The translations under genes were made by a program, and so were the position numbers. Of a stretch of DNA of 34,055 bases, positions 4,436-29,666 are shown piece after piece. Position 1 is the first letter of the stretch, and the number at the start of each line of letters is the position of its first letter. The stretch lies in contig NZ_AQWL01000019.1 of the NCBI RefSeq assembly GCF_000376425.1, forward strand, positions 1-34,055, given 5' to 3'. The stretch is from Thiobacillus denitrificans DSM 12475. Its GTDB lineage: Bacteria > Pseudomonadota > Gammaproteobacteria > Burkholderiales > Thiobacillaceae. The notes under the pieces are model-generated. The model did no database searches. It worked only from the letters and a program-made list of their open reading frames with translations, and was not told where the DNA came from.

Positions 4436-4735
4436 ATGAACAAACTCATCCCCACCCTGCTCGCTGCCCTGATCCTCCCAATGGCCAGCATGAATGTCTA
4501 CGCAGAGAAAGCTTGCAATCGCGGTGATACACGTTGTGCTGCCGATGGATACGTACAAGAGTGCATTGGTGCCGGTGACTTTACCTCCTGGTCTCCATCT
4601 TTGATGGGAAAAAGATGCGCTAATCCAGTCGCAGGCTGCACTGAAGGCGATAAGAAATGTGGTGTTGATGGATTCATCATGCGATGCACTTATGAAAACA
4701 GATGGGAATCAACAGTAACGGCGTGCAAGAAGTAA
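4436..4735 (+). CDS. Small Cys-rich exported protein with a duplicated motif
   Basis: A 99-aa protein with a clear signal peptide (MNKLIPTLLAALILPMASMNVYA, cleavage likely after YA). The mature part of about 76 aa has two copies of a Cys module: C-x2-GDTRCAADGYVQEC, then C-x-EGDKKCGVDGFIMRC. The 8 cysteines suggest a disulfide-stabilised periplasmic or secreted fold. AGGAG lies 9 nt before the ATG. A strong hairpin follows the stop, so it is probably a single-gene transcript. Base composition is more AT-rich than the neighbouring sigma-factor genes. The family is not recognised. Confidence 0.78.
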   Translation: MNKLIPTLLAALILPMASMNVYAEKACNRGDTRCAADGYVQECIGAGDFTSWSPSLMGKRCANPVAGCTEGDKKCGVDGFIMRCTYENRWESTVTACKK

Positions 4736-6202: not shown

Positions 6203-6586
6203 ATGGACACAATCAAAAAACTATTGATCAAATTAGCCATCATAAACATGGTTATCTTCGGCACCTCGTCAGCGCTTGCCGAAAGTGGCGAGATTTTTCT
6301 GAACTGCACAAACGTCTCTTTAGAAAAACACGATGGCAAACTTGTTAACCGCGTAAAGGTTGCCGATTTTGGATACACGATATCCGCGGACCGTACAAAA
6401 ATTAAGGAATGGGGAGATTCATCATGGAGACCATTGCAGGTTACGGAGGATAAATACATATTCGGAAACGAGACATACATTAGCCGCACTACAGGCCGCT
6501 ATTTCAGCATTGATAAGAGAGAGACTTATTTTTATGTAGTAGAAGCTGCATGCAGCAGAGCAAAAAAGGAACCCTTCAAATTTTAA
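6203..6586 (+). CDS. Small exported protein
   Basis: A 127-aa protein with a signal peptide (MDTIKKLLIKLAIINMVIFG, then TSSALA). The mature part of about 100 aa has Cys residues near both ends (FLNCTNVS and EAACSRA), a likely disulfide. It is strand-rich: VADFGYTISAD, KYIFGNETYIS, RYFSIDKRETYFYVVE. I chose ATG 6203 over an in-frame TTG at 6191 because it places the lysines directly before the hydrophobic core. The gene is much more AT-rich than its neighbours, suggesting separate acquisition. The function is unknown. Confidence 0.72.
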   Translation: MDTIKKLLIKLAIINMVIFGTSSALAESGEIFLNCTNVSLEKHDGKLVNRVKVADFGYTISADRTKIKEWGDSSWRPLQVTEDKYIFGNETYISRTTGRYFSIDKRETYFYVVEAACSRAKKEPFKF

Positions 6587-6620
6587 GTGGCATATACAGT
6601 GAAGCTACGAGCCAAACCGC

Positions 6621-6688: not shown

Positions 6689-6949
6689 CTACCGCCTGTC
6701 CTGCTCGTTCTCCAGCGCTTTCCGGCGCTCCGCGTCACTTTCAGTATCCGGCTTGAACTCGTGGGGCTTGACGGGGGGGTACCGCAGCGACTCCTCGCCG
6801 CGCTTGCGAGCTTCCCGCTGGTCCTGTTCCATAGCCTGCTCGATTGCCAGCGTCGTCTGCGATGCCTGCGCGAATCCCGGGACCATGCCGGCCAGGCACA
6901 GAACGGAAAAGGCAGTCAGTTGCTTGATGGTTTTGAGACGGGTCTTCAT
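6689..6949 (-). CDS. Small exported charged protein
   Basis: An 86-aa protein with a signal peptide (MKTRLKTIKQLTAFSVLCLA, then GMVPGFAQA). The mature part of about 57 aa is highly charged and probably helical (AIEQAMEQDQREARKRGEES, then SDAERRKALENEQDRR). AGGAGG lies 7 nt before the chosen ATG, which decides the start. It is transcribed away from the YbjN-like gene, with the terminator-like hairpin at 6621-6656 beyond its 3' end. No family is recognised; it could be a periplasmic helical protein. Confidence 0.68.
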   Translation of the reverse strand: MKTRLKTIKQLTAFSVLCLAGMVPGFAQASQTTLAIEQAMEQDQREARKRGEESLRYPPVKPHEFKPDTESDAERRKALENEQDRR

Positions 6950-7264: not shown

Positions 7265-7834
7265 ATGAAGAAGCTTCTGGCCGCCAGCCTGTTCAGGCTG
7301 GCCGTTATGTCTGCCCATCTGACGAAAGCCGCCATGTTTGCACGTCTTCGATTGACTGCTGGATCGGGGGCGCCAGCAATCTTGACCGATATCTGCACAA
7401 CCGATCTGCTGCAGATTCTGGAACAGGAGGGCGTATTGGCTTACCAGGCTTCGCCTTCCAGCCTGCTGGCGAATATGGACGACATGAAGGTCTTTTTTCT
7501 GACCCCGAACGACCGGAAAGCCCTGCAGGCATACATTGGGTTCTGTTCCGATCAGTCCGAGGAACTGGAGAAATTGAACGCGTGGAACCGGACACACTGC
7601 TACTCGCGCGCCTATCTGGACGATGAAGGCGACGCCGTGCTGATGCTGGATCTCGACATGGAGGGCGGCGTCACCCGGGAGCGCATCGTCGATTTCATCA
7701 GAACAGTGTACGTATCGCTGCGCACCTTCGACGAATTCTTGCGCACGGGTGATTGGGACGTCCACGGCCAGGCTGATGGCGACGACTTGCCGGCCGTGAT
7801 CGGCACAGGAACAATGTCTATCTGGAAACATTAG
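7265..7834 (+). CDS. YbjN-domain protein
   Basis: A 189-aa protein whose residues about 55-165 match the YbjN fold (PF10722 type): the helix DRKALQAYIGFCSDQSEELE, then LNAWNRTHCYSRAYLDDEGD, the strand AVLMLDLDMEGG and the helix RERIVDFIRTVY. YbjN-like domains resemble type III secretion chaperones and are thought to bind proteins in stress signalling. The first 25 residues are hydrophobic and basic (MKKLLAASLFRLAVMS) and may be a signal or anchor. GTGGAGG lies 9 nt before the ATG. The STAND/WD40 gene starts 44 nt downstream, so both are probably co-transcribed and may work together. Confidence 0.82.
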   Translation: MKKLLAASLFRLAVMSAHLTKAAMFARLRLTAGSGAPAILTDICTTDLLQILEQEGVLAYQASPSSLLANMDDMKVFFLTPNDRKALQAYIGFCSDQSEELEKLNAWNRTHCYSRAYLDDEGDAVLMLDLDMEGGVTRERIVDFIRTVYVSLRTFDEFLRTGDWDVHGQADGDDLPAVIGTGTMSIWKH

Positions 7835-7878: not shown

Positions 7879-10800
7879 ATGTCGATCTGGATATTACTGA
7901 CCGCAGGCGAACATGAAGCGCACGCAGTTCGTCTTGAAACCCGGGGGGTTTACGCCGCCCCACCGGGTGGTCAGGGGGTGGACGTCCATCTTGAGCCGAA
8001 GCGCACCGATATGCTGGCCCTGTCCGCGACGGACATGGCGAACCTGGCCTATCGCCTCATCGTCCGCGAGGGCATCAGCCGCTCACAGCTCTATCTACGC
8101 TATGCCCTGGAGAGCGGTTCGATCCAGGCCAAAGGCCGAAGCGCGGACTTGGCCTTCCTGCTGGCGCACCTAGTGAGCGTGCTGCAGGCGCTGGACCCTT
8201 CACGCCGCTTTCCCGCCTTTGCCGCCACTGGCAGGGTGGATGACGACGGCCAGGTGCTGTCAGTGGAGTCCGTCCCCGCCAAGGTAAGTGCCGCACGTGA
8301 CGCCCTGGCCGGCGATCCGGACAGCGTGATCCTGATACCGCGGGCGAACTGGAACGAGGCCGAATATGCACCGCAACAGTCCGGCCCCCGTGTTCAGCCG
8401 GTGGAGACCGTTTACGAAGCCTTGGAGTTTCTGGGCATCCACCTCACACGCAGCTGGCTGGGCTGCCCCTACCGCGGACTGGAGCACTTCGGCTTCGAGC
8501 ACCGCGCCGTGTTCTTCGGCCGTGATGACGAGGTGCAGGCCTGCCTGACACAGCTCAACCAGCGGGCCAGTGCTGGCCACCCCGGTCTGCTGGTCCTTGG
8601 CCCGAGTGGCAGCGGCAAAAGCTCTTTCCTGGAGGCGGGTGTGCTCGCCGGGCTGCTGGCACCCACCCTGGAGCAGGGGTACGCCTCCTCTGCCTTCGCA
8701 CGAGACTGCGCGCACAACCTCTGGCGCCCTGCGCAGGTGGGCGATGCCACGGAAGCGGCCCTTGTGCAAAGCCTGCTGCATGGCTGGTCAGGTGTTCTGC
8801 CCGGCCTTGACGCGGACAGGCTCAAGCATCTGGATCAGGTGGTGCCTTGCCTGTTGCGCCACATGACGAATGGTTCTTCCATGCTTTGGGTGATCGATCA
8901 GCTGGAGGAACTCTTCACCACCCACACCTACCCCCACGAACTGCTGGAACGATTTGGCGCGTTCCTGCTCGACCTGCAGCAGGCCGGAGTCTGGGTACTC
9001 GCCAGCCTGCGCGACGACTACCTGGCTGCCCTGATGCGTGTCGACAGCCTGCGGCAATGGCTGGCGACAGTGGGCGGCCCCTACTACCTCAAACCGCTGT
9101 CGGACGCGGCCGCGCTGAGCGCCGCGATCACGCGGCCGGCGGCGATGGCAGGTCTCGAATTCGAGACCAACGCACAAGGCTACAGCCTCGCCCAGCAGCT
9201 CCAGGAAGATGCTCTGGGCGCCGCCGACCCGCTGCCGCTGGTCGAATATTCGCTGCTGCAGCTCTATCAGGGGCGTGAGGGCAGGCTTCTCACCTGGGAA
9301 ACCTACGCTGCGATGGGGGGGCTGGTCGGGGCAATCGGACAGCGAGCGGAAGCGGTCTACACCAGCCTCCCCATGCAGCAGGCAGGTGAGCTAAACGACC
9401 AAGCCCAACTGCAAGCCACCTTGCGCCGCCTCCTGCGTGCCCTGGCGAACAGCGGCGATGGCAGGCGCGAACAGCTGACCGCGCGCGTGGTGCCAGTGAC
9501 CCGCTTCGACCATGACGCGGGCGCCAAGGACTTGATCGACGCTCTGGTCAGCGAGCGTTTTCTGGTGAGGTTCGAGGCAGAGCAGGGTCTGTGCCTGCGT
9601 GTCGCGCACGAAGCCTTCCTGTCGCAGTGGCCTACGGCGCGGGCGCTCATTGAACAGGACAAGAATGACCTGCAACGGCTGCAACGACTGGAAACGGCTT
9701 ATGACCGCTGGCTGCAGGCAGGCCAGACCCAGGACCTGCTGCTGCCGCCGGGATTGCCCCTCGGCGAGGCCGCCGAACTGCGCACCCGCTGGGGCGATGA
9801 CCTGGACGCGCCCCTGCATGGCTACATCGAGCGTTCAGCGCACAAGGCGCGACGGGGCACCCTCATCCGGAATGCGTTTATGGCCTTGCTGGCATTGCTG
9901 GTGGTGGTCGCCTCAGGCGGCTTCTGGTGGGCAGACAGGCAAACGCAGGCAGCGCAGCGGCAGGCCCTGATCTCGCAGCAGAAGAGCCTGGAGGCGAACA
10001 GAAAATCAGCCGAGTTGGCCCAGGCCAACCTCAATCTGGAAAGACAAACCGCCATCGCCAATGCCCAAACGAAATCCGCGCAGGATGCAACCCGACGCGC
10101 AACCGATGCACTGATCCGCTCGACGGTGCTTGCCCTGGTGGGGCAGGCACGATCCGACGCGCAAACTTACCCGAATCGTGGTGAAAACCTGATGCGTGTC
10201 CTGATTGCCCGCAAGATCTCGGAAAGTCCTGAGGTCCTGCATGCGCTGCAAACATTGGAAAGCCAGTCAAGAAACAACTGGATCAGCCTTCCATTGAGCG
10301 GGCACAGGCATTCGGTTACCAGCGTGGCCTTCAGCCCGGACGGCAAGCGCATGGTCTCGGGGAGCGACGACAGGACCCTGCGCCTGTGGGACACGCAGAC
10401 CGGCGAGCCCGTCGGTCTGCCATTGCGGGGGCATGCGCGTTCGGTCACCAGCGTCGCCTTTAGTCCGGATGGCAAGCGCGTCGTCTCGGGGAGCATGGAC
10501 AACACCCTGCGCCTGTGGGACGCCCAGACAGGCCGTCCCATTCATCAGCCCTTACGTGGGCACAAAGCTTATGTCAGTTGCGTCGCCTTCAGCCCGGATG
10601 GCAGGCAAATCGCCTCTGGGAGCTTCGATGAAACGCTGCGCCTTTGGGATGCACAGACCGGCCAGCCGATTGGTCAGCCGTTGCAGGGGCATAAGCAGTG
10701 GGTCAACGGCGTGGCCTTCAGTCCGGATGGCAAACATATCGCCTCGGCGAGCGAAGACGGCACCCTGCGCCTGTGGGATACGGCGACTGGCCAGCCGATC

Positions 10801-12216
10801 GGCAAGCCGATGAAAGGGCGTTCTGAATCCTTCACCAGTGTCGCCTTCAGTCCGGATGGCAGGCAGATCGTGACGGCCAGCGATGAGGCCACCCTGCGCC
10901 TGTGGGATGCGCTGACCGGCCGCCCTCTGGGCGAACCCTTGCAAGGCCACCGGCTAGCGGTCAGAAGTGTGGCCTTCAGCCCAGATGGCAAGCGCATCGC
11001 CTCCGGGGGCACGGACCGCACCCTGCGCCTGTGGGATGCGCAGACTGGCCGCCCCATCGGCCAGCCGCTGCTGGGACATGAGGATGACATCAAGGGTGTG
11101 GCCTTCAGCCCGGATGGCAAACGCATCGCCTCGGCGAGTTTTGACAACACCCTGCGTCTCTGGGACACGCAACCCGGCCGGCTCTCCGACCAGCCCTTGC
11201 GTGGCGAATGGCAACAGTCGGATCACCTTGCATTGAGCCCCGACGGCCGACGCATCGTCTCGACGGCACATTCGGAGACACTGCATTACGTACTGCAATT
11301 CTGGGATGCCCGGACCGGTCAGCCCGTCGGCCATTCGCTCCAAGGGCACAAAGACTGGATCAACCACGTCGCCATCAGCCCGGACGGCCGGCGTATCGCC
11401 ACGGCGAGCGACGACAAGACCCTGCGCCTGTGGGATGCCCATTCCGGCCGCCCCATCGGCCAACCGTTGACGGGGCATCAGGACGAAGTCACTACTGTCG
11501 CCTTCAGTCCGGATGGCCGGCGCATCGCCTCGGGGAGCGAAGACAAGACCCTGCGCCTCTGGGATGCCCATTCCGGCCGACCCATCGGCCAAGCGTTGAA
11601 GGGGCACCAGGACAAAGTCACCACTGTCGCCTTCAGTCCGGATGGCCGGCGCATCGTCTCGGCGAGCGAGGATGGCACTCTCTACCAATGGGATGCCCAG
11701 ACCGGCCGACAAATACTGCAAGTCGTGCGGGTGAATGAGACAGCCGTCCGCAGCATTGCCTTCAGCCCGGATGGCCGGCGCATCGTGGCTGGGAATGGTG
11801 ACCATACCCTCCGGCTATTGGACGCGCGGACCGGGCGGCCAATCGGACAGCCGCTGCGGGGGCATGAGGATGAGATCGCCAGTGTGGCCTTCAGTCCGGA
11901 TGGTCGGCATGTCACATCCGGGAGTTTCGACACGACGCTGCGGCTGTGGGATGCACAGACTGGCCGCCCCATCGGTCAGCCACTGCAGGGCCATAAAGAC
12001 TGGATCACCAGTGTCGCCTTCAGCCCGGATGGCAAGCAAGTGGTCTCCGGCAGCGATGACGAAACCATCCGACTGTGGCCCGTACTGGACGGCTGGATCG
12101 ATGCCCTCTGCGCCCGCCTAACCCGAAATCCCACCCAGGAGGAGTGGCGGATGTGGGTGGGCAGCGTCATCCCGTATAAACCGGTCTGTCCCAAGCTGCC
12201 TGTGCCGAAAAACTGA
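7879..12216 (+). CDS. Lon-like protease domain / nSTAND NTPase / TM / 14 x WD40 fusion protein
   Basis: A 1445-aa signalling protein. Residues about 1-160 resemble a Lon (S16) proteolytic domain: GRSADLAFLLAHL with Ser88, then FAATGRVDDDGQVLSVESVP, Lys135 and VILIPRAN, which line up with the Lon Ser-Lys dyad and the PK-N end. An nSTAND1-type NTPase follows: GRDDEV at 214-219, Walker A GPSGSGKSS at 241-249, Walker B LWVIDQLEELF at 336-346, and LASLRDDYLAAL at 374-385. One membrane helix lies at about 666-684 after a basic stretch, then a coiled coil to about 745. From 807 there are 14 WD40 repeats of about 43 aa, enough for two seven-bladed propellers. By family knowledge, STAND proteins assemble when a ligand binds the repeats and then switch on the N-terminal effector, here probably proteolysis. 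The gene is intact and probably co-transcribed with the YbjN-like gene. Confidence 0.88.
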   Translation: MSIWILLTAGEHEAHAVRLETRGVYAAPPGGQGVDVHLEPKRTDMLALSATDMANLAYRLIVREGISRSQLYLRYALESGSIQAKGRSADLAFLLAHLVSVLQALDPSRRFPAFAATGRVDDDGQVLSVESVPAKVSAARDALAGDPDSVILIPRANWNEAEYAPQQSGPRVQPVETVYEALEFLGIHLTRSWLGCPYRGLEHFGFEHRAVFFGRDDEVQACLTQLNQRASAGHPGLLVLGPSGSGKSSFLEAGVLAGLLAPTLEQGYASSAFARDCAHNLWRPAQVGDATEAALVQSLLHGWSGVLPGLDADRLKHLDQVVPCLLRHMTNGSSMLWVIDQLEELFTTHTYPHELLERFGAFLLDLQQAGVWVLASLRDDYLAALMRVDSLRQWLATVGGPYYLKPLSDAAALSAAITRPAAMAGLEFETNAQGYSLAQQLQEDALGAADPLPLVEYSLLQLYQGREGRLLTWETYAAMGGLVGAIGQRAEAVYTSLPMQQAGELNDQAQLQATLRRLLRALANSGDGRREQLTARVVPVTRFDHDAGAKDLIDALVSERFLVRFEAEQGLCLRVAHEAFLSQWPTARALIEQDKNDLQRLQRLETAYDRWLQAGQTQDLLLPPGLPLGEAAELRTRWGDDLDAPLHGYIERSAHKARRGTLIRNAFMALLALLVVVASGGFWWADRQTQAAQRQALISQQKSLEANRKSAELAQANLNLERQTAIANAQTKSAQDATRRATDALIRSTVLALVGQARSDAQTYPNRGENLMRVLIARKISESPEVLHALQTLESQSRNNWISLPLSGHRHSVTSVAFSPDGKRMVSGSDDRTLRLWDTQTGEPVGLPLRGHARSVTSVAFSPDGKRVVSGSMDNTLRLWDAQTGRPIHQPLRGHKAYVSCVAFSPDGRQIASGSFDETLRLWDAQTGQPIGQPLQGHKQWVNGVAFSPDGKHIASASEDGTLRLWDTATGQPIGKPMKGRSESFTSVAFSPDGRQIVTASDEATLRLWDALTGRPLGEPLQGHRLAVRSVAFSPDGKRIASGGTDRTLRLWDAQTGRPIGQPLLGHEDDIKGVAFSPDGKRIASASFDNTLRLWDTQPGRLSDQPLRGEWQQSDHLALSPDGRRIVSTAHSETLHYVLQFWDARTGQPVGHSLQGHKDWINHVAISPDGRRIATASDDKTLRLWDAHSGRPIGQPLTGHQDEVTTVAFSPDGRRIASGSEDKTLRLWDAHSGRPIGQALKGHQDKVTTVAFSPDGRRIVSASEDGTLYQWDAQTGRQILQVVRVNETAVRSIAFSPDGRRIVAGNGDHTLRLLDARTGRPIGQPLRGHEDEIASVAFSPDGRHVTSGSFDTTLRLWDAQTGRPIGQPLQGHKDWITSVAFSPDGKQVVSGSDDETIRLWPVLDGWIDALCARLTRNPTQEEWRMWVGSVIPYKPVCPKLPVPKN
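10297..12093 (+). repeat. Fourteen tandem 129-bp WD40-coding repeats
   Basis: The WD40 part repeats with a period of about 129 bp. Nearly every unit contains GTxGCCTTCAGxCCGGATGGC and CTGCGCCTGTGGGATGC-like blocks. Units 9-11 and 13-14 are especially alike. Unit 8 is divergent and slightly longer, and units 5 and 12 lack the GH dipeptide. Such DNA-level similarity implies recent duplication or gene conversion between units. Confidence 0.85.
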
Positions 12217-12418: not shown

Positions 12419-12553
12419 TCACTGTCCGTCTCTAACCAACCTCACCGCATAGGAACTGCTGCGGAAGCGGTGGTCGAAACCATCGAAGCCTGAGAGAAAG
12501 CTAACCACGCCCCAGCCATTGGGGTCCAGGCTGGGCGTGCTGGTCCAGTAGTA
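12419..12553 (-). other. Candidate DGR variable region of the larger DUF1566 gene
   Basis: The last 45 codons from YYWTSTP to AVRLVRDGQ. The ends are nearly identical in protein to the paralogue's C-terminus. The middle differs at most positions, and most differing codons there end in C or T, as expected if a template had AAC/AAT codons. Two or three codons (CTG, GTG, TCA) break the pattern. Confidence 0.5.
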
Positions 12554-13153
12554 CTGCTCAATTTTCAAGTCCATACCCGGGAAAGCATCGGTATCGATCG
12601 TCGGCAAAGTCCTTGATGACCTTCGATCTTTGTCGATCAGGGTCATCAACTCGCGCTGGCTGGGCATGCGCCAACCATTCCCTCCTTGAGCTTGGGCTTC
12701 ATCGAACATAAATCGTTTCACAATACCAGCGCAGCCAATACCATCTTTCCACTCCTGACCCAGGCTGCAGCGCATCCAGGTCAGGTTGGTCGCGTTGTCA
12801 TATACCGTGTCGCCCTTGATCACATAGCGCGGATTTGTGGCCGTGCGCGCTTTGGGTTGCGGGGTGCTGGGCTTTGGCTCACGAGCAGTATGACAACCTT
12901 CAAGGTAAACTCCTTCGACAATGGAACGGCAATCCCTGTATTGCGGGACGCAGGTTGTGCGTACGTAACTATATTCGCGTAGCGCCACAAAATCTGCTTT
13001 ACATTCATCGTACTGCGAGCGACACACAGCAAGCTCACGTTCGGCGCCCTCAGGGTTGCAATACCCCTTGCTATAGGTCGCGGGACTCACAAGAACGCCA
13101 ATGATCAAAATTGATATTTTTTTCCAATCAGGCCACATTGAACCATCCCCCAT
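12419..13153 (-). CDS. Exported DUF1566 (Lcl-type, C-type-lectin-like) protein with DGR-like variable C-terminus
   Basis: A 244-aa protein. The hydrophobic N-terminal segment (WKKISILIIGVLVSPATYS) is a signal peptide or anchor. A Cys-rich region follows at about 30-85 (CNPEGAERELAVCRSQYDEC, CVPQYRDC). The rest is a DUF1566/Lcl domain: PRYVIKGDTVYDNATNLTWM, then GGNGWRMPSQRELMTLID, YYWTSTPS and the ending AVRLVRDGQ. The start at 13153 has GAGGG 5 nt upstream; an in-frame ATG at 13138 is possible. It is a paralogue of the gene at 13387-13872, which lacks the Cys-rich part. DUF1566 is a known target fold of diversity-generating retroelements. A role in ligand binding outside the cytoplasm is likely. 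Confidence 0.8.
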   Translation of the reverse strand: MGDGSMWPDWKKISILIIGVLVSPATYSKGYCNPEGAERELAVCRSQYDECKADFVALREYSYVRTTCVPQYRDCRSIVEGVYLEGCHTAREPKPSTPQPKARTATNPRYVIKGDTVYDNATNLTWMRCSLGQEWKDGIGCAGIVKRFMFDEAQAQGGNGWRMPSQRELMTLIDKDRRSSRTLPTIDTDAFPGMDLKIEQYYWTSTPSLDPNGWGVVSFLSGFDGFDHRFRSSSYAVRLVRDGQ

Positions 13154-13200
13154 TTTTCCCTCTGACAATTCAATCAAGAACACATTGAACAAACCGCCCC

Positions 13201-13349
13201 CACATTCAGGGCCTGTTCGCGCAGCTGCGGCCCCAAGGTGTACTTGTGATAGCGTGCGAATCGACGCAACCCCTGCTCCGTCCATAGCCCTGCGCGTCGC
13301 GCCACAGGGGTAGATGCGGCGGGCCCATCCGTCCCTTGCGCCCCGCCAT
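13201..13349 (-). pseudogene. avd: Remnant of a DGR Avd-like (four-helix bundle) gene
   Basis: On the same strand as, and just downstream of, the small DUF1566 gene. From the ATG at 13349 one frame reads LPLWRDAQ (13313-13290). After a 2-nt shift another frame reads LWTEQGLRRF, then ARYHKYTLGPQLREQALNV (13287-13201). Joined, these resemble the N-terminal half of the accessory variability determinant proteins of DGRs, which have LPxWRDA at the start and a FxRYHKYTLGxxLRxQA segment. The homology stops abruptly at 13201, so the C-terminal half, and any template repeat or reverse transcriptase behind it, is gone. The assignment is from memory of the family. Confidence 0.55.
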
Positions 13350-13356
13350 GCTCACC

Positions 13357-13370
13357 CCGCCTGACGGCGG
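13357..13370. other. GC-rich hairpin downstream of the DUF1566 variable region
   Basis: A perfect 5-bp stem CCGCC/GGCGG with a 4-nt loop (TGAC on the plus strand), 16 nt beyond the stop of the smaller DUF1566 gene. No T tract follows on either strand in the needed direction, so it is a poor terminator. Short GC-rich hairpins with 4-nt loops just after the variable region are a known DGR feature, although usually with stems of 7 bp or more. Confidence 0.35.
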
Positions 13371-13386
13371 AATAAAAAGTCAAAAA

Positions 13387-13509
13387 TCACTGTCCGCCTC
13401 TCACCAACCTGACCGCATTAGTATCGCTGCGGAGGCAGTTGCCGACGCGGCCGGCACTGAAACCGACGCACCAGGCATCGGAGGCGTTGGGCGTACTTGT
13501 CCAGTACCA
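13387..13509 (-). other. Candidate DGR variable region of the smaller DUF1566 gene
   Basis: The last 41 codons, WYWTSTPN to AVRLVRGGQ. Around fixed W, V, F, G and R codons, the variable positions (A, S, D, C, G, S, A, R, G, N, C, L, S, D, T, N) are all encoded by codons ending in C or T. This is what adenine mutagenesis of a template rich in AAC/AAT would give. Confidence 0.6.
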
Positions 13510-13872
13510 CAGCTCAGCGCCTTGTCTGGCCATGTCCGGGAAGGCATCCACGTCGATGGTCGGTCTCCGTTCCTGTTTCTTGCGCGCCTGATCGATCAGG
13601 GTCGCCAGCTCGTCCTTGCTCGGCACCCGCCAGCCGCCCCCGCCCTGTTTCTGCGCGTCTTCAAAGGTGAAGGTCTTCTGCACCCCAACGCAACCCATGC
13701 CTTCCTTCCAGCGCATGCCCACGCTGCACCGCTTCCAGGTGAGGTCGGTCTGCTTGTCGTACACCTCGTCGCTGCTGATCACGTAGCGCGGGTCGGCCGC
13801 CGCCGCAGGCAGCGCCAAACAGGCAATGAAACACAGCATGGCCATGCGCAAGACACCCTGAAATATCTTCAT
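13387..13872 (-). CDS. Exported DUF1566 (Lcl-type) protein with DGR-like variable C-terminus
   Basis: A 161-aa protein with a signal peptide (MLCFIACLALPAAAA in the first 25 residues) followed by a single DUF1566/Lcl domain: PRYVISSDEVYDKQTDLTWK, then FEDAQKQGGGGWRVPSKDEL, LWYWTSTPN and AVRLVRGGQ. GGGAGA lies 5 nt before the ATG. Its gene organisation (target gene, then Avd-like remnant on the same strand) is that of a DGR target. The C-terminal 40 residues are the presumed diversified ligand-binding face of a C-type-lectin fold. It is probably periplasmic or secreted. With no reverse transcriptase nearby it may now be fixed, or be served by an RT outside the window. Confidence 0.85.
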   Translation of the reverse strand: MKIFQGVLRMAMLCFIACLALPAAAADPRYVISSDEVYDKQTDLTWKRCSVGMRWKEGMGCVGVQKTFTFEDAQKQGGGGWRVPSKDELATLIDQARKKQERRPTIDVDAFPDMARQGAELWYWTSTPNASDAWCVGFSAGRVGNCLRSDTNAVRLVRGGQ

Positions 13873-21178: not shown

Positions 21179-21811
21179 ATGACGATTTCCAATACAGATG
21201 CTGGCTACTTGGGCAAATTGCAGGACTACCATGCCCGGCATGGGGTGCTGCCGTCTTACTCTGGTCTCGGCGAGATCGTTGGGTTTAAGACAAAGAACGC
21301 CGCTTCCAAGCTGGCGAAGCGATTGATCTCAGCCGGTTTTCTCAAGCGCGCGCCAGGAGGGAAACTCGCACCCACAGATGAATTTTTCGGCCTGCCCCTA
21401 ATGTGCGAAGCCGTCCGGGCTGGGAGCCCTGAGGGCATCGATGGCCAGACGTCTGCCGATCTGGTAACTCTGAATGGCTTGCTTTGTGATCGCCCATCCA
21501 GAACTGTGCTACTACCGGTAAAGGGTGACTCAATGCGTGATCTGGGCGTATTGGATGGCGATATTGCCGTAGTAGAAAGGACCGAGACCGCCAGTTCAGG
21601 TCAACTTGTTGTGGCCATTGTCGATGACGAGTTCACCTTCAAGGAGCTTGGTTACGAGAAAGATCATCCCGTTCTCATTCCGCACAATCCTGATTTCTCA
21701 GTGATCCGCCCCTCCCAGTCACTTCATATCTACGGGATCGTTCGGAGCGTTGTTCGTCGCTACCCGGATTCAGCGAGAAGCCAACAACGAATTTCAGGAG
21801 CACCATTGTGA
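21179..21811 (+). CDS. LexA/UmuD-like self-cleaving repressor (S24 family)
   Basis: A 210-aa protein. The N-terminal winged-helix-like DNA-binding region (about 9-60) contains HARHGVLPSYSGLGEIVGF, the LexA N-terminal pattern. Cleavage site Ala81-Gly82 in EAVRAGSPEG. The S24 peptidase domain has Ser118 (KGDSMRD) and Lys155 (EFTFKEL). The spacing is nearly the same as in E. coli LexA (Ala84-Gly85, Ser119, Lys156). By family knowledge, RecA filaments stimulate self-cleavage and release the operon. It overlaps the next gene by 4 nt (GTGA), so it heads an operon with the DUF5131 and TcmP genes. Longer in-frame starts at 21143 and 21170 would overlap the operator or the -10 box. Confidence 0.88.
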   Translation: MTISNTDAGYLGKLQDYHARHGVLPSYSGLGEIVGFKTKNAASKLAKRLISAGFLKRAPGGKLAPTDEFFGLPLMCEAVRAGSPEGIDGQTSADLVTLNGLLCDRPSRTVLLPVKGDSMRDLGVLDGDIAVVERTETASSGQLVVAIVDDEFTFKELGYEKDHPVLIPHNPDFSVIRPSQSLHIYGIVRSVVRRYPDSARSQQRISGAPL

Positions 21812-22560
21812 CTACCACCAGCCGGATTGAATGGACTGAGCAAACCTGGAACCCTGCAGTGGGTTGCACCAAAATATCGTCGGGGTGCAAGCACTGCTAC
21901 GCCGAAACCATGGCAAAGCGCTTAAAAGCAATGGGTACGCCTGGCTATGAGAATGGGTTTGCATTGCAGATCCTTCCCCAGCGTCTGCTTGATCCAATCA
22001 AACGCAAGAAGCCGACGGTCTATTTTGTGAACTCGATGTCGGATCTCTTTCACGATCGGATACCAGATGGCTACATCGAGCAGGTATTCGAAGTTATTGA
22101 ACAGACGCCTCAGCACACCTATCAGATACTTACCAAACGTGCTGCTCGAATGGCGCGCTATTTCAAGAACAGGTCTGTTCCGGACAATGCTTGGCTAGGT
22201 GTTACTGTTGAAAATCGGAAGCATGGCGTGCCCAGGATCGATTACCTGAGAAAGGTACCTGCTCGCATTCGATTTCTAAGTATCGAGCCTTTACTAGAAG
22301 ATATTGGTGCCCTGGACTTGAAGAACATCCAATGGGTAATCGTGGGCGGAGAATCTGGTCCTAAAGCGCGTCCAATGAAGCAAGAATGGGCCGACTCAGT
22401 CCGCTTGCAATGCGCAAAGCAGAAGGTCGCTTTTTTCTTCAAGCAATGGGGTGGCTGGGGTGCAGACGGGCAGAAGCGCGCGAAATCAGCCAATGGGCGT
22501 GAACTCAATGGTCGAACATGGGATGAGATGCCTAGGGAAGCACTCTTGGCAGTTGGATAA
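21808..22560 (+). CDS. DUF5131 (phage Gp37/Gp68) three-Cys-motif protein
   Basis: A 250-aa protein of the Gp37/Gp68 family (PF07505). N-terminal Cys cluster Cys20-x6-Cys27-x2-Cys30 in AVGCTKISSGCKHCYAETMA, resembling radical-SAM iron-sulfur sites. Conserved blocks follow: VYFVNSMSDLFHDRIPD, QILTKRAARM, WLGVTVENRK, RFLSIEPLLEDIG, WVIVGGESGPKARPM and FFFKQWGGW. It starts with GTG, with CAGGAG 7 nt upstream. The reaction is not established; a radical-SAM-like chemistry on nucleic acid or protein is a guess. Members are often found next to TcmP proteins, as here. Confidence 0.88.
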   Translation: MTTTSRIEWTEQTWNPAVGCTKISSGCKHCYAETMAKRLKAMGTPGYENGFALQILPQRLLDPIKRKKPTVYFVNSMSDLFHDRIPDGYIEQVFEVIEQTPQHTYQILTKRAARMARYFKNRSVPDNAWLGVTVENRKHGVPRIDYLRKVPARIRFLSIEPLLEDIGALDLKNIQWVIVGGESGPKARPMKQEWADSVRLQCAKQKVAFFFKQWGGWGADGQKRAKSANGRELNGRTWDEMPREALLAVG

Positions 22561-22615
22561 CCTGGTATCTTGGTATCTGCCAAAGCCCACAGCAATAAAC
22601 CAATAGAATTCGCTC

Positions 22616-23917
22616 ATGACCAAGCGAAGCGATAAATATTTGTGGTGCGTAGGCAGCAAGCCACCGCCTATCGACCCACATAGTCAGGTGAAGCATCAGA
22701 TCGTACAACGCTACCTTGAGCGGTATGTACATGTCCTGATGAGCAACTTCCTGATGGAGAAACTGACTTTGTCGATTGTAGATGGCTTTGCCGGCGGGGG
22801 GGAGTATTCATCGGACGATGGGACTGAATACTACGATGGCTCACCTCTGATTGCCTTGCGGACTATACGGGAGCAAGAGGCAATAATGAACGTAGGTCGG
22901 ACGAAGCAACGCAGAATCGACGCGAGGTACTACTTCGTCGAAAAGCTCAAACCTCACTTCGACTACCTAGAACATCTGCTGAGTGCACGGCTCCCAGCAG
23001 AGAGGTTCGGCAATGATGTTTTTCTGTTCGAGAACGCTTTCCAGAACGTAGTGGATAACGTGATTCAAGATATACGCAGAAGAGCAGGGGGCGAGCGGGC
23101 TATATTCCTATTAGATCAGTATGCTTACGATCAAGTTCCGGCACCGCTTCTAAAGAAAATATTCAATGAGGTAAAAGGGGCTGAGGTAATTCTCACATTC
23201 AACGTTGATTCACTGATCTCTTTCCTTAGCGACACTAAAATCAGTCGCAAGAAACTGGATGAGACAGGGCTGAGCAGATATATCGATTGGGATGGCCTTC
23301 AGGCGCTCAAGGATCAGGGGCCGATGGTGTGGCGAGCTGCAATTCAACGCAATTTGGCACGCGGCCTGATTGAATCAAGTGGGGCTCTGCACTACACAAT
23401 CTTCTACATTACCCCTATGGGTAGCACCCCTTGGACTTACTGGCTGATTCATCTATCGAATAGCTACAAGGCAAGGGATGTCATGATGGAACTTCACTGG
23501 GAGATGGCGAACCACTTTTCTCACTACCTGGAGCCGGACATATACAGCCTTAACCTTGGCTATCAGGCTAAAAGCGACTCGAATGCCACAAGGCAGATTG
23601 AATTCGATTTGGGCGAAGCACATTACTTTGATGAAGTCGCTTCCAGAAAGACAAGCAGCGGCCTCACCCAAAAGTTAATTCCTGCAATTTACGACAGTGG
23701 GGAATCTCGGCCGTTTGGACATTGGCTCGAAACAATTGGCAGTTCGACCCCAGCCACTGCCGGGATGATCCGACAAGCACTTGACCCAGGAATTCGCTCC
23801 GGCGACATCATTGCGCGGTCCAAAGATGGGGCCCTGCGCAAAAGAGGCGGATCATTAAAGCCAACGGACATTCTGTCACCCTCGTCACAGAGACCTTTTA
23901 TTTTTGTTCCCCGGTAG
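22616..23917 (+). CDS. tcmP: TcmP-type three-Cys-motif partner protein, copy 1
   Basis: A 433-aa protein of the TcmP (three-Cys-motif partner) family. The first residues have DKYLWCVGSKPPPIDPHSQV, leading to KHQIVQRYLERY. A Rossmann-like methyltransferase motif follows (LSIVDGFAGGGEYSSDDG, 52-69) and a motif-IV-like acidic site FLLDQYAYDQVP (164-175). The C-terminal part (about 340-433) looks like a winged-helix end (GMIRQALDPGIRSGDIIARS). It lies 55 nt after the DUF5131 gene on the same strand, with no strong ribosome binding site. The fold suggests SAM-dependent methyl transfer or a catalytically altered relative. Confidence 0.85.
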   Translation: MTKRSDKYLWCVGSKPPPIDPHSQVKHQIVQRYLERYVHVLMSNFLMEKLTLSIVDGFAGGGEYSSDDGTEYYDGSPLIALRTIREQEAIMNVGRTKQRRIDARYYFVEKLKPHFDYLEHLLSARLPAERFGNDVFLFENAFQNVVDNVIQDIRRRAGGERAIFLLDQYAYDQVPAPLLKKIFNEVKGAEVILTFNVDSLISFLSDTKISRKKLDETGLSRYIDWDGLQALKDQGPMVWRAAIQRNLARGLIESSGALHYTIFYITPMGSTPWTYWLIHLSNSYKARDVMMELHWEMANHFSHYLEPDIYSLNLGYQAKSDSNATRQIEFDLGEAHYFDEVASRKTSSGLTQKLIPAIYDSGESRPFGHWLETIGSSTPATAGMIRQALDPGIRSGDIIARSKDGALRKRGGSLKPTDILSPSSQRPFIFVPR

Positions 23918-23940
23918 TAAGTTTGAGAGGCACAGACAGA

Positions 23941-24795
23941 ATGGTGAAATCGCGGCTTGTAAGGTCAGTTGAACCCGACCCCTATCCACACCTGCCGGTA
24001 GAGCGGGGCAAAAAAGACAAGGGCGTAGGTATCTGGGTACCTCAGGACAAACACCGACTTCTATGCGACTACCTGTATGCGAGTCGATATGCCTGGAAAA
24101 AGTGGCCCGAACGCATCTTTATCGACCCATTCTGTGGTCCTGGAAGAATTCAGGTCGAAGGGGAGTCGTTTACACGGGAAGGTGGAGCAGTTCTGGCTTG
24201 GAGAACACTTGCCGAAGAGGCACCATTCAGCCGCATGCTAGTTGGCGATATCGATCCAATTCGAGCAGCGGCATGCGAACGACGGCTGCAAGCTGGCGGC
24301 GCATCAGTCAAATCCTTTGCAGGGCCTGCTGTAGAGACAATAAAGGACATGGTGCAGGAAGTGCCACGTAATGCGCTATGCATCGCATACATAGACCCCT
24401 ACAATCTTGAGTACCTGTCATTCTCGATCATAGAAGAGCTAGCAAAGTTGAGAGTCGATCTTGCAATCAATTTTTGCACGATGGACCTACAGCGAAATGC
24501 TGAGTTCGAGTTCGACCCTGAGAGGGCAAGATTCGACGATGCAGCCCCTGGCTGGCGTGAAGACAAGGATGTTCTTGAGGCCAGCAAGCAGAACGTAAAA
24601 TTGGCCTTTTTCCGTTATTGGTGCCGACTCGTAGGGGGGTTGGGATTTGAACATAGCCGAGAAATGCCTCTGGTACACAACAATGCGGGCCAACCGATAT
24701 ATCGCATGGTCTTCTTCGCTAGAGGACACGATCTGCCAAAAAGGATCTGGAGTGATGTCGCCAGAGGACAAAATCGATCTCTTGAGTTCTTCTGA
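23941..24795 (+). CDS. TcmP-type three-Cys-motif partner protein, copy 2
   Basis: A 284-aa protein related to TcmP but very different from the upstream copy. Methyltransferase-like motif I is FIDPFCGPGRI (60-70), an acidic motif II is LVGDIDP (100-106), and the motif-IV-like site is AYIDPYNLEYLSF (149-161). The DPY tripeptide is closer to amino-methyltransferases than in copy 1. The N-terminal VGIWVPQDKHRLLCDYLYA is typical of the family. ATG 23941 is preceded by GAGAGG; it starts 23 nt after the first copy and shares its transcript. The substrate is unknown. Confidence 0.82.
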   Translation: MVKSRLVRSVEPDPYPHLPVERGKKDKGVGIWVPQDKHRLLCDYLYASRYAWKKWPERIFIDPFCGPGRIQVEGESFTREGGAVLAWRTLAEEAPFSRMLVGDIDPIRAAACERRLQAGGASVKSFAGPAVETIKDMVQEVPRNALCIAYIDPYNLEYLSFSIIEELAKLRVDLAINFCTMDLQRNAEFEFDPERARFDDAAPGWREDKDVLEASKQNVKLAFFRYWCRLVGGLGFEHSREMPLVHNNAGQPIYRMVFFARGHDLPKRIWSDVARGQNRSLEFF

Positions 24796-24894: not shown

Positions 24895-27810
24895 ATGACC
24901 TCGTTTGATTTGCTTGCCCAGAGCAAAGCCAACCCGCAGCAGGTAGAAGCCATCCTTGCCACCGATGGCCCGGTGCTCATCATCGCGGGCCCAGGTTCCG
25001 GCAAGACCTTCACGCTGGTCGAGCGCATCGTTTATCTCATCACGCAGAAAGGCGTCGTGCCGGAGTCGCTGCTCGTCGTCACCTTCACTGACAAAGCCGC
25101 GCGGGAGCTGACAACCCGCATCTCCAACCGGCTGACCGATCTGGGCATCAAGTTCAACTTGAACGAGATGTACCTCGGGACGTTCCACTCCATCTGCCTG
25201 CGGCTGCTGGAGGACTACCGCGAGTTCACCCGGCTCAAACGCAGCTTCACGCTGTTCGACCAGTTCGATCAGCAGTATTTCCTCTACCAGCACATCAAGG
25301 ATTTCCGCGAACTGCCCGACGCCCAGCTCGTTATGGGCGACGACCAGACGGGCCGCTGGGCGCAGTCGGAAAGCCTGCTCAAGTGGGTCAGCAAGGTCAG
25401 CGAAGAGGCGCTCGACCCCACCACGCTGGCGGCGGCCCCAGAGCCGGAAATCCGCGCCTTGGCCACATGCTTTGCCAAGTACCAGGAGCTGCTGCACGAG
25501 CACAACTCACTGGACTTCTCTGGCATCCAGTACGAGGCGCTGCAACTGCTGGAAAAGCGCCCCGAGGTGCTGGGGCAACTACGCGAAAAGCTCACGCACC
25601 TGATGGTGGACGAGTACCAGGACACCAACACCATTCAGGAACGCATCCTTCTGCTGCTGGCGGGCGAGAACAAGAATCTGTGCGTGGTCGGCGACGACGA
25701 CCAGGGCCTGTACCGCTTTCGCGGAGCCACCATCCGCAACATTCTGGAGTTCCCCGCGCTGTTCGATGACGGCCAGTGCAAGCAGGTCAAGCTCACCGTC
25801 AACTACCGTTCGCACCCGGACATCATCCGCTTCTACAACGAGTGGATGAAGGAGCAGGTCTGGGACGACGGCACGCGTGTTTTTCGCTTCGCCAAGCAGA
25901 TCGTCCCGCGCGAGGACGACTTCCCTGACATGCCCACGGCGGTGCGGCTGGCCGCCAGTGACGACAAGGGCGACACCACCAACTGGCACGCAGAGGTGCT
26001 GTCCTTCCTCAATGGGCTGAAGGCATCCGGACAGCTTCAGGATTGGAACCAGGTCGCCTTCCTGTTCCGTTCGGTGAAGAACGACAAGGCGGTGGCGCTC
26101 GCACGCTTCCTCGAAGCCGAAGGTGTGCCCGTCTTCTCGCCACGCTCGAACATGTTCTTCGAGCGCGAGGAAATCCGCCTGATGATCGGCGCGCTGATAT
26201 TCCTGTTCCCACAGTTCCCAAAGGTGCGGGCATGGGCCGAAGGCGTGCATCTGGACATCTGGGACTACTACGACCAGCTCTGCTTCAAGCACTTCACCGA
26301 CGAGCTGCGCAAGCCAGAAAACAAGCCGCTGCTGGATTGGGCTCGCCCGCTGGCCAAGCGCCACGCCGTACTGACGCAGAACACCGACTACGCCTTCTCC
26401 GGTCTGTTCTACCAACTGCTCCAGTTCCCGCTGTTCTCGCGCTTCCTCACGGAAGAGGCCGTGCAAGGCGTGGACAAGGGGCGCGCGGCGCGCAACCTCG
26501 GCACCTTCTCCAAGCTGCTCACCAAGTTCGAGTACCTGCACTTCGTCAGCGTATTGAACCCGGAGTGGCTGGAAAAGAACATCCGCGACCTGTTCAACCA
26601 GTTCCTGCGCTTCCTGCAGGACGGCGGCATCGGCGAGTACGAGGACGAAGCCGAGTACGCGCCCAAGGGCTGCGTGTCGTTCCTGACCATCCACCAGTCC
26701 AAGGGGCTGGAGTTCCCGGTGGTGGTGTGCGGCTCACTGGAGGCGGTGCCGCGCAAGCAATACAGCGCGCTGGACGTGTTGCTGGAGGATGGCGGCTACC
26801 TCTCGAAGGAGCGCTTCGAGCCGCTCGATCACATCAAGAACTTCGACTTTTGGCGGCTGTTCTACACCGCCTTTTCGCGTGCGCAGAACCTGCTGGTGCT
26901 GGCGGCGCAGGAGAAGCAAGGCCGAGGCAAGTCGCCGTCGAAGTATTTCGAGCGCCTGTTCTATGAGCTGCCCAGTTGGCGTGACGTCAATCTGTCGGCG
27001 CTGACCTTCGAGGCCGTCAAGCAGATCAACCTCAAGCGCGAGTACTCGTTCACCTCGCACATCACAGTGTTCGAGAACTGCGCTGAGCAATACCGCTTCT
27101 TCAAGGATCTGGAATTCGCGCCCATCCGCGAGAGCCCGATGCTCTTCGGTACCTTGGTGCATCAAACCATCGAGGACATCCACAAAACCGTGCTGCGCGG
27201 CGAGGAAGGCAGCATCACCTTCGACGCCATCAAGGGCTGGTTCTCGGCCAACTACGCGATGCTGTCAAAGAAGGAGCGCGTCTACCTCGCGCCCAGCTCG
27301 CAGCAGGCGGCGCTACTGCACGTCATGCGCTACTACGAGCGCGAGAACGGCAACTGGGATCGCATCAAAGAAGCCGAGGTCGAGATCTCGCTGGTCAAGG
27401 ATCAGTACATCCTCAAAGGCAGCGTCGACCTGATTCGCGGCGAGCACGACACGGTCGAGATCATCGACTTCAAGTCGGAGAAGAAGCCCGACATGGAGAA
27501 GGATCGGGATCGCCTGCGTCAGTACCAGAGCCAGTTGGAGGTGTACGCCCACCTGGTTGAGGAGCGCACCGGCCAGAAGGTCAGCCGGATGCATCTGTAC
27601 TACACCGGCGAGGACGGCGGGAACCCCTACGTCTCCTTCAGTAAGGACGACCGTGCCATCGGCAAGACCATCGCGCGTTTCGACGACATCGTGGCCCGCA
27701 TCGAGCGGCAGGACTATGGGCTGTCGGCACGCCCGGCCAAGCTGTGCCAGAACTGCGACATGCGCGCCTACTGCGACAACAAGAATTGGAAATTCAGGAA
27801 AAACGACTGA
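24895..27810 (+). CDS. UvrD-family helicase fused to a Fe-S PD-(D/E)XK nuclease
   Basis: A 971-aa superfamily 1A helicase-nuclease. Q-motif-like NPQQVEAI, Walker A GPGSGKT (about 32-38), LVVTFTDKAARELTTRI, LGTFHSICLR, Walker B VDEYQDTN (about 237), GDDDQGLYRFRGA, LTVNYRSHPDI and the late motif FLTIHQSKGLEFPVVV. The C-terminus is a RecB/Cas4-like nuclease with Asp845, Asp858 and Lys860 (GSVDLI, EIIDFKSEK). Cys729, 951, 954 and 960 would hold an iron-sulfur cluster. It should unwind and degrade DNA ends. An AT-rich gap of about 100 bp precedes it, probably its promoter (TACAAT around 24842). Its stop overlaps the mod start (TGATG). Confidence 0.93.
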   Translation: MTSFDLLAQSKANPQQVEAILATDGPVLIIAGPGSGKTFTLVERIVYLITQKGVVPESLLVVTFTDKAARELTTRISNRLTDLGIKFNLNEMYLGTFHSICLRLLEDYREFTRLKRSFTLFDQFDQQYFLYQHIKDFRELPDAQLVMGDDQTGRWAQSESLLKWVSKVSEEALDPTTLAAAPEPEIRALATCFAKYQELLHEHNSLDFSGIQYEALQLLEKRPEVLGQLREKLTHLMVDEYQDTNTIQERILLLLAGENKNLCVVGDDDQGLYRFRGATIRNILEFPALFDDGQCKQVKLTVNYRSHPDIIRFYNEWMKEQVWDDGTRVFRFAKQIVPREDDFPDMPTAVRLAASDDKGDTTNWHAEVLSFLNGLKASGQLQDWNQVAFLFRSVKNDKAVALARFLEAEGVPVFSPRSNMFFEREEIRLMIGALIFLFPQFPKVRAWAEGVHLDIWDYYDQLCFKHFTDELRKPENKPLLDWARPLAKRHAVLTQNTDYAFSGLFYQLLQFPLFSRFLTEEAVQGVDKGRAARNLGTFSKLLTKFEYLHFVSVLNPEWLEKNIRDLFNQFLRFLQDGGIGEYEDEAEYAPKGCVSFLTIHQSKGLEFPVVVCGSLEAVPRKQYSALDVLLEDGGYLSKERFEPLDHIKNFDFWRLFYTAFSRAQNLLVLAAQEKQGRGKSPSKYFERLFYELPSWRDVNLSALTFEAVKQINLKREYSFTSHITVFENCAEQYRFFKDLEFAPIRESPMLFGTLVHQTIEDIHKTVLRGEEGSITFDAIKGWFSANYAMLSKKERVYLAPSSQQAALLHVMRYYERENGNWDRIKEAEVEISLVKDQYILKGSVDLIRGEHDTVEIIDFKSEKKPDMEKDRDRLRQYQSQLEVYAHLVEERTGQKVSRMHLYYTGEDGGNPYVSFSKDDRAIGKTIARFDDIVARIERQDYGLSARPAKLCQNCDMRAYCDNKNWKFRKND

Positions 27811-29666
27811 TGAGCAAGAACACACCCGCGCAGGAAAGCCTGCAACTGGCCACGCCCGATGGCGGCACCACCAACGTCGAGAAGTACGAGTTCGAGCCCA
27901 TCAAAGGCTACCCGATGCTCAACTGGCGCGGCAAGCGCCCGTTCACCTCAACGCAGTATTACCCGGCGCAGTTAAAGGAAGTCCACGGCGAGGAGGTGGA
28001 CGGCTGGCGCAACAAGATTTTCTGGGGTGACAACCTGCAGGTGATGAGCCACTTGCTGAAGGAATTTCGAGGCAAGGTTGATCTGATTTACATCGACCCG
28101 CCATTTGATTCCGGCGCTGATTACAAGAGGAAAGTACAGCTGGGAGGCCAGTCAACGACCACGGATCAGCTTGTCTTTGAAGAAAAGCAGTACACGGACT
28201 TGTGGTCGAACGATGAATACCTACAGTTCATGTTTGAGCGGCTTGTTCTAATGCGCGAGCTACTTTCAAAGACCGGGAGCATTTACCTTCACTGTGATTC
28301 CCACAAATCACATCATCTTCGCTGCATCATGGAAGAGGTGTTCGGTCAGGAGCACTTCTTGAACGACGTGATTTGGTGCTATTCGGATGCCGCAAACAGC
28401 AAGAAATACTGGAACACCAAGCACGACACTATTTTGTTCTTCAAGAAGTCCGAGGAGTGGACCTTCAACTACGAAGCAGTATTGCGCCCCCACACAGAGG
28501 AGAACATCAAGAAGTACAGATATGAAGATGAGAATGGCCGCTATAGGCTTTTTGGCAAGAACGTGGCAGGAAGCCCCATACAGTGGCATCGAGACGTAAG
28601 TCCTGAATGGGAGAAAACTAATCCTGAGCTTGTCTTTAGGCACTATCTAAAGGATGGCAGCCTTCCGCTGGACTGGTGGAACATCAACCCCGTAAACCAA
28701 GCTGCAAAGGAGCGAACTGGCTATCCAACGCAAAAGCCAGAAGAGCTTTTGGAGCGAATTCTCCTTGCTAGCTCAAAGCCGGGGGATATTGTTTTTGACT
28801 GTTTCATGGGGTCAGGAACCGCCCAAGCCGTAGCAATGAAACTCGGGCGCCGCTTCGTTGGCGCTGATATCAACCTCGGTGCGATCCAGACAACTACCAA
28901 GCGCCTGCTGAGCGTATCTGAAGAGTTGCGTCAGCGACCCCTTGATGGGGAAGCGAAGTCCTTCACCGGATTCGAGCTACACAACGTCAATCACTACGAT
29001 GTTTTCCGCAATCCGGCTCAGGCCAAAGATCTTCTCATTGACGCTCTTGAGGTGCAGAGGCTCGATTTCAGCACCGTGTTCGACGGTGAGAAGGACGGGC
29101 GCATGGTCAAGATCATGCCTGTCAACCGCATCGCCACCCGCGCCGATCTGAACGAGCTGATTGCGGGCTTCGACTACAAGGCGTGGGAGCGCAAGCAGAA
29201 CGAAAGCCCGAACCGACCGGTCGAGAAGATCACCCTCGTCTGCATGGGGCACGAGCCTACCTTGCGGGCGGAACTGGAACTTGCCGCCAAGCCCTTCAAG
29301 ATCGACGTGGAAGTGGTGGACATCCTGCGCGACAAGGCCGATCTGGAGTTCAAGCGCGATTCGCAGGCCAAGGTGTCCATCAAGACGGGCGAGTTGGTCA
29401 TCGAGAAGTTCTACCCGATGAACCTGCTGCAGAAGCTCTCGTTGCAGAAGGAGTCAGTCGAGGACTGGAAGGAATTGGCCGAGTCGGTGCTGATCGACTG
29501 GAACTACGACGGTGCTGTGCTGCAACCGGCGGTGGTGGACATCCCCGGCAGGAACGAACAGGTCAAGGGCACGTACAAGGTGCCGGGCGACGCGGGCACC
29601 ATCCGCGTGAAGATCACCGACCTGCTCTCGGAGTCGTGGGAAGGGAGCGTCAGCAATGGCGACTAA
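27810..29666 (+). CDS. mod: Type III restriction-modification DNA methyltransferase (Mod)
   Basis: A 618-aa site-specific adenine-N6 methyltransferase. Motif IV is IDPPF (95-99) and motif I is FDCFMGSGTAQAV (330-342). This order, with the target-recognition region between them, is that of beta-class enzymes such as type III Mod. The C-terminal 200 residues are a conserved extension (for example VVDILRDKADLEFKRDSQAK). In type III systems Mod sets the recognition site and is needed for both modification and cutting. The ATG overlaps the helicase stop, and the end overlaps res by 11 nt. The central part (about 28060-29050) is visibly less GC-rich than both ends. Confidence 0.93.
   Translation: MSKNTPAQESLQLATPDGGTTNVEKYEFEPIKGYPMLNWRGKRPFTSTQYYPAQLKEVHGEEVDGWRNKIFWGDNLQVMSHLLKEFRGKVDLIYIDPPFDSGADYKRKVQLGGQSTTTDQLVFEEKQYTDLWSNDEYLQFMFERLVLMRELLSKTGSIYLHCDSHKSHHLRCIMEEVFGQEHFLNDVIWCYSDAANSKKYWNTKHDTILFFKKSEEWTFNYEAVLRPHTEENIKKYRYEDENGRYRLFGKNVAGSPIQWHRDVSPEWEKTNPELVFRHYLKDGSLPLDWWNINPVNQAAKERTGYPTQKPEELLERILLASSKPGDIVFDCFMGSGTAQAVAMKLGRRFVGADINLGAIQTTTKRLLSVSEELRQRPLDGEAKSFTGFELHNVNHYDVFRNPAQAKDLLIDALEVQRLDFSTVFDGEKDGRMVKIMPVNRIATRADLNELIAGFDYKAWERKQNESPNRPVEKITLVCMGHEPTLRAELELAAKPFKIDVEVVDILRDKADLEFKRDSQAKVSIKTGELVIEKFYPMNLLQKLSLQKESVEDWKELAESVLIDWNYDGAVLQPAVVDIPGRNEQVKGTYKVPGDAGTIRVKITDLLSESWEGSVSNGD

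Follow-up and report, generated by a model that had tools for sequence, protein, structure and literature searches.

The window, that is, the whole stretch of DNA analysed in this study, is the complete contig C19 of 34,055 bases. Two genes encoding proteins with the Lcl_C domain (DUF1566, PF07603) lie in tandem on its minus strand and are referred to as VP1 (the smaller protein) and VP2 (the larger one). Both open reading frames were real, as the initial annotation had described them, and the proteins scored 76 and 80.8 bits against PF07603, for which the Pfam cut-off is 34.9. The flanking motifs YWTSTP and AVRLVRxGQ were also present as claimed; the segment between them, which had been given as 30 residues, actually comprises 24 residues in VP1 and 28 in VP2. 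The N-terminus of VP1 looks like a signal peptide, as judged by eye. About the first 34 codons of the listed VP2 frame overlap, in a different frame, a fragment of an avd-like gene. Since the listed start falls inside this fragment, the ATG at 13153 (codon 45, after AGAGGGAAAA) is more likely to be the start of VP2. The constant 3' end of VP1 lies at the position where a DGR has its IMH.

Table 1 Features of the two Lcl_C genes and the intervening fragment (positions in the window).
Feature	Positions	Strand	Description
VP1, smaller Lcl_C (DUF1566) protein, probable former DGR target	13387..13872	-	ORF of 161 aa; PF07603 E 1.2e-22
VP2, larger Lcl_C protein	12419..13285	-	ORF of 288 aa; PF07603 E 3.7e-21
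VP1 variable segment	13417..13488	-	24 codons, 23 ending in C/T
VP2 variable segment	12449..12532	-	28 codons, 24 ending in C/T
VP1 constant 3' end	13387..13416	-	AVRLVRGGQ + stop
VP2 constant 3' end	12419..12448	-	
avd-like gene fragment	13183..13316	-	two pieces in different frames, homologous to residues 18-26 and 25-61 of the G250 frame (153 residues)

Several other genes were found on the same contig, among them those for an IS481 transposase and an integrase. An nSTAND1 NTPase with 13 WD40 stretches is encoded at 7879-12216 on the plus strand, convergent with VP2, and this neighbour of the DGR remnant is possibly a sensor-type conflict protein. A protein weakly similar to radical-SAM mobile pair protein A (below the cut-off) was followed by two consecutive three-Cys-motif partner (TcmP) proteins at 21808-24795 (plus), a region that was matched by the PADLOC candidate models PDC-M30 and PDC-M41. 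Farther along the plus strand (24895-32340), one row of genes is perhaps a restriction or defence operon; it encodes a UvrD/PcrA-like helicase whose end is Cas4-like, a DNA methyltransferase that is type II/III-like according to PADLOC, and a protein with weak similarity to a BPTD_3080 restriction enzyme. The NCBIfam scores of this row were under the cut-offs.

The domains of VP1 and VP2 were 55% identical, indicating that the genes are not recent copies. Their last 30 bases were identical at 27 positions, and longer DNA matches showed 68-69% identity. The near-identical 3' ends would fit a past common template, in a short stretch that is also under protein constraint. Upstream of the variable segment, the two genes differed at 29, 28, and 52 of the first, second, and third codon positions, respectively (103 codons), a third-base bias like that of genes maintained for their protein product. 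Inside the segment, the corresponding numbers were 14, 9, and 10 (24 codons), and the shift of the differences away from third bases was not significant (Fisher P 0.11). The third base differed in 10 of the 24 aligned variable codons, which, together with the difference in segment length, indicates that no single template gave rise to both segments recently.

The initial annotation had regarded the codon endings in the smaller gene as the mark of adenine-directed mutagenesis. All 16 codons it named do end in C or T (11.9 expected given the amino acids, P 0.004). However, its statement that the fixed codons lack this pattern did not hold: V, F, G, and R codons in VP1 also end in C or T, and therefore variable and fixed codons cannot be told apart by such endings. 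Across the whole segment, 23 of the 24 codons of VP1 had these endings, as against 16.7 expected from the amino acids and the codon use of the contig (P 2e-4), and 24 of the 28 codons of VP2 as against 19.9 (P 0.03), the excess in VP2 being weak. These tests were run after the pattern had been spotted, so that the P values are optimistic, and a window count is the fairer control; the highest count per 24-codon window was 20 among 8,583 windows from 21 other, hand-picked genes of the contig.

The same test was applied to nine of 14 planned segments (G341, G370, G367, and G238 were missed by the motif and G250:C78 was not entered). The target of a real DGR, described below as G250, showed an excess (P 8e-4), and no clear excess was observed in five Lcl_C segments for which no serving DGR is known, namely two from the own genome (P 0.53 and 0.9) and those of G089 (P 0.98), G081 (P 0.78), and G057 (P 0.067), although the last approaches an excess. 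In the real DGR region of G038, one of the two real DGR regions so tested, there was no excess (P 0.51); hence, a missing excess does not exclude a DGR. Residues K, E, Q, and M, which are unreachable from AAY codons by changes at A, were absent from the 52 positions of the VP1 and VP2 segments and occurred once among the 29 of the G250 target, and three to six times in each of the five comparison segments.

The best match of the VP2 domain outside the own genome, among 399 genomes of the order searched, was at 33560-33955 of contig G250:C86 (50% identity), and six of the 398 other genomes matched at E 1e-15. This contig, JANXYG010000028.1, belongs to the Betaproteobacteria MAG GL140_3_metabat_338 and carries a cassette in the order target gene, Avd-like gene, template, and RT. 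The target is an Lcl_C gene in which the same segment is diversified as in the window genes. Its VR occupies the final 114 bases of the coding sequence (33670-33557 on the contig). The TR, which is 105 bases long and rich in AAC, is a near-copy of the VR and lies at 32876-32772; in the best ungapped 70-base match between the two, 14 of the 16 mismatches were at template A. Judged from these sequence features, the Lcl_C gene of G250:C86 is a genuine DGR target. The difference in segment length between VP1 and VP2 had been taken as an argument against a DGR, and it was dropped because VR and TR of this cassette also differ, by 9 bases. The RT has the motifs IGNLSSQFF and YVDD. As a separate observation, the C-terminal part of the RT frame (L073:7179-8921, minus strand) matches MutS domain I (PF01624, E 2.3e-6). 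The Avd-like frame between target and template (153 residues) matched bAvd PF22296 at E 1.2e-5 with 26.2 bits, below the curated cut-off of 40; it had no convincing match among solved structures (best E 0.13) and none among plasmids or phages in protein searches.

When the Avd-like protein of G250 was compared with the window by tblastn, two minus-strand pieces were found between VP1 and VP2, at 13302-13183 (57.5% identity over 40 columns) and, in another frame, at 13316-13290, with E 1.6e-10; the next place in the window had E 0.39. The same place was also the best in the whole own genome (E 2.5e-8; next E 0.03). The DNA of this region scored 53.6 bits against G250, whereas the maximum in 1000 shuffles was 29.2. 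No intact Avd gene was found beside the targets, only this frameshifted fragment corresponding to about 44 of 153 residues; no homology was seen beyond the two pieces, and the fragment in single-frame reading matched no Pfam family.

The homology to the G250 cassette was also colinear. At the DNA level, 34 bases over the 3' end and stop codon of VP1 were 82% identical, as were 84% of 49 bases in the 5' part of avd. The homology begins in VP1, crosses the stop codon and the spacer into avd, and stops near 13183-13198, just ahead of VP2, and the gene order of the window is that of the cassette without the template, the RT, and the remainder of avd. In 55 aligned bases, the VP1 segment differed from the G250 template at 8 of 13 template A positions and at 7 of 42 other bases (one-sided Fisher P 0.003). 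The window holds a VR-like segment that bears a fingerprint of changes at template A and is homologous to a real DGR cassette, in target genes of a known DGR kind with a C-terminal VR (PF07603, homologous to the G250 target in the same segment).

A genome search for a near-copy of 13387-13509 as template repeat and for a DGR RT had been proposed in the initial annotation, which had named the lack of both as the first half of what would speak against its claim; neither was found. The own genome consists of 3,609,948 bases (3.61 Mb) in 38 contigs, with completeness 100 and contamination 0.55. The RVT_1 profile had no match in it (three of 14 control genomes match), nor had the DGR RT of G089, and the sole match of the G250 RT frame (E 0.017) involved query residues 447-570, which lie within the MutS_I-like part. 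In DNA searches of the own genome for a template repeat, the 3' ends of VP1 and VP2 each found only the other, with further matches up to E 10 of at most 31 bases and E of at least 0.0098, and an A-tolerant scan covering the window plus 9 kb from contig C3 gave no template. As a control, all four VRs examined (G038, G089, and the two G250 cassettes) retrieved their own TR, with E values from 1.4e-25 to 7.5e-48; these were blastn comparisons of each VR with its own stretch of 12-17 kb, scaled to a database of 3.6 Mb, rather than runs through the genome search itself. A template of such a kind should therefore have been detected.

Among 100 relatives, the best match of VP1 was in G089 (E 2e-22, 43% identity) and the highest identity was 45% (G006, E 3.5e-13). 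In six aligned proteins, the stretch bounded by the YWTS-like and VRLV-like motifs varied in sequence and length, and no TR-VR pair was found in the 5 to 13 kb surrounding each of eight further Lcl_C loci. A two-domain Lcl_C protein was also observed in the genus (G000:C3:189722-190567 and several of L012-L035); the loop of its second domain, YWSSTTSLFEPDWAWALYLEKGATG, is nearly constant in many of the members compared, unlike the window genes. VP1 matched eight distant records among plasmid proteins, and the plasmid DNA search, the phage protein searches, and the searches of viral contigs and, with the small protein, of genome contigs yielded nothing useful.

Further DGRs and a DGR-like pair were encountered in the course of these comparisons. 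Within the genus, the G089 RT was compared with 57 genomes, the own one among them, and matched in seven; when motifs were read at nine of the ten loci, an RT of the GxxxSQ type was seen only in G038:C91. RVT_1 matched in 11 of 25 other genomes with Lcl_C hits (20 + 5); RT motifs were read at eight of the 12 matches of the 20-genome set and at G038:C91, and at G250:C86 only of the four matches in the 5-genome set, while G250:C78 was recognised by its TR-VR pair alone. The DGR of G038:C91 (L059) belongs to the same genus, appears prophage-like by eye, and has an RT with IGNLLSQ (RVT_1 E 1e-18), a TR at 7297, and a VR at 6711; the two differ at 12 of 70 bases, each of them a template A. Its target had no Lcl_C family match and only an E1_FCCH domain in Pfam, and the Lcl_C hits listed for G038 are on a different contig. 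At G089:C12 (L045), the target combines a caspase domain with an FGE-sulfatase domain, and the TR (8825) and VR (7074) differ at seven of 70 bases, again all at template A; the G089 template had no match in the stretch that holds the Lcl_C protein of G089. A second DGR-like pair in G250 (G250:C78, L078) has its TR at 4681 and its VR at 4459; all 17 mismatches over 70 bases fall at template A, and a further near-copy (84%) lies on the other strand at 6481-6616.

Regarding the question of a C-type-lectin fold in the window proteins, a search with sequence profile A1 against the PDB gave 8q4e (listed as HbP1; presumably the Lcl domain) at E 3e-5 and 4eps at E 0.047. The comparison with known systems begins with DUF1566 itself, which is a common DGR target domain in print, as the initial annotation had stated (PMC4159848, PMC6642488). 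The C-terminal domain of Legionella Lcl is the same Pfam domain as that of the window proteins (DUF1566/PF07603); Lcl is extracellular, and the monomer of this domain is reported to be similar to C-type lectin-like domains (PMC11162425). Unlike the window proteins, in which no collagen-like stalk was seen, Lcl has such a stalk, and a DGR role is absent from its description in the available text of that report (PMC11162425). The G250:C86 DGR resembles the window in having an Lcl_C gene as its target, variable in the same segment, in the Avd-like gene that directly follows this target, and in the colinearity of the DNA. In contrast to the window, where no TR or RT was found, it retains a TR and an RT, the latter in the frame with the MutS_I-like part; the window further differs in its broken avd and its second target.

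Target genes remaining after loss of the core DGR have been described in Treponema denticola, where targets without TR or RT occur in eight of 17 isolates according to Table 1 of the report (PMC4891356). In that species, sister isolates reveal the template; the window, by contrast, has an avd fragment in place and no close relative at hand. In cyanobacteria, the accessible text of another report describes one paralogue with remnant TR-VR homology and no nearby RT (PMC7517822). Since leftover targets in both groups are already in print, the kind of system is known. An avd fragment in place as a tell-tale of a DGR had no earlier description in a partial literature search, which mostly covered papers outside subscription.

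Taken together, these findings suggest, at a probability of roughly 0.85, that VP1 and VP2 are retained variable-protein genes of a decayed DGR, of which an avd fragment was kept and the RT and template were apparently lost. This reading is supported by the homology of the proteins to a real DGR target, the colinearity, the avd fragment, the codon fingerprint, and the finding of neither RT nor TR in the assembly. The adenine-directed mutagenesis claimed in the initial annotation accordingly stands as the probable origin of the segments, the nearest outside homologue found being a DGR target diversified in the same segment, and a broken avd-like gene colinear with that DGR lying between VP1 and VP2; as an ongoing process it is not supported, no RT or template having been found in the genome. 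The ancestral cassette would have had the order VP, avd, TR, and RT, plus a second VP. An error-prone RT would have copied an AAC/AAT-rich template, placing random bases at template A and keeping the third codon base, and would thereby have diversified the C-terminal loops of Lcl_C proteins that are probably secreted and probably C-type-lectin-like. A later loss, presumably by deletion, would have removed the RT and TR together with the 3' part of avd, leaving VP1, the avd fragment, and VP2. Diversification would no longer run in the living cell, and the proteins, with frozen variable regions, would now most likely be fixed binding proteins.

Ordinary divergence of paralogues was the explanation favoured at first. 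It holds that Lcl_C loops vary by normal substitution and selection, that the C/T endings are chance, and that the genes were never DGR targets; the loop variation among the six aligned proteins and the lack of a TR-VR pair around the eight other Lcl_C places agree with it. It was overturned by the G250 locus and the avd fragment, whose colinearity with a real DGR cassette largely refutes it, and the five comparison Lcl_C segments, on which no DGR is known to act, show no clear codon excess. We therefore consider it very improbable. It also seems improbable that the genes are still being rewritten in trans by an RT and template in assembly gaps or on an unassembled element. Gaps do exist, the window being a complete contig in an assembly of 38, and remote targets are known in Treponema denticola (PMC4891356); however, the completeness of the genome and the outcome of the three RT searches speak against such a source, avd is both frameshifted and cut, and the divergence between the domains of VP1 and VP2 indicates that they have not been homogenised lately by a shared template.

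Arrival of VP1 and the avd piece by horizontal transfer without TR and RT, with diversification never having run in this lineage, overlaps with the decay of a DGR and is rather unlikely as a separate account. The modest identity of VP1 to its matches in relatives and the IS481 transposase and integrase genes on the contig are consistent with it, but it requires that the cut was made elsewhere and that VP2 was carried along, and the data do not separate it from a local deletion. A more specific history of the decayed DGR can be put forward tentatively, as a possibility less probable than not: the DGR found useful binders, the target was duplicated, the mutator was lost, and both frozen variants were kept by selection. 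If true, this would be domestication of DGR products and not plain decay.

The decayed-DGR reading of this locus suggests that DGR targets may be recognisable after the loss of RT and template, via their codon endings and an avd fragment. A survey starting from the RT would miss such leftover targets, and a missing RT does not rule out the DGR ancestry of a suspected target. The pair of genes in the window also provides a defined case for asking whether selection keeps frozen variable regions.
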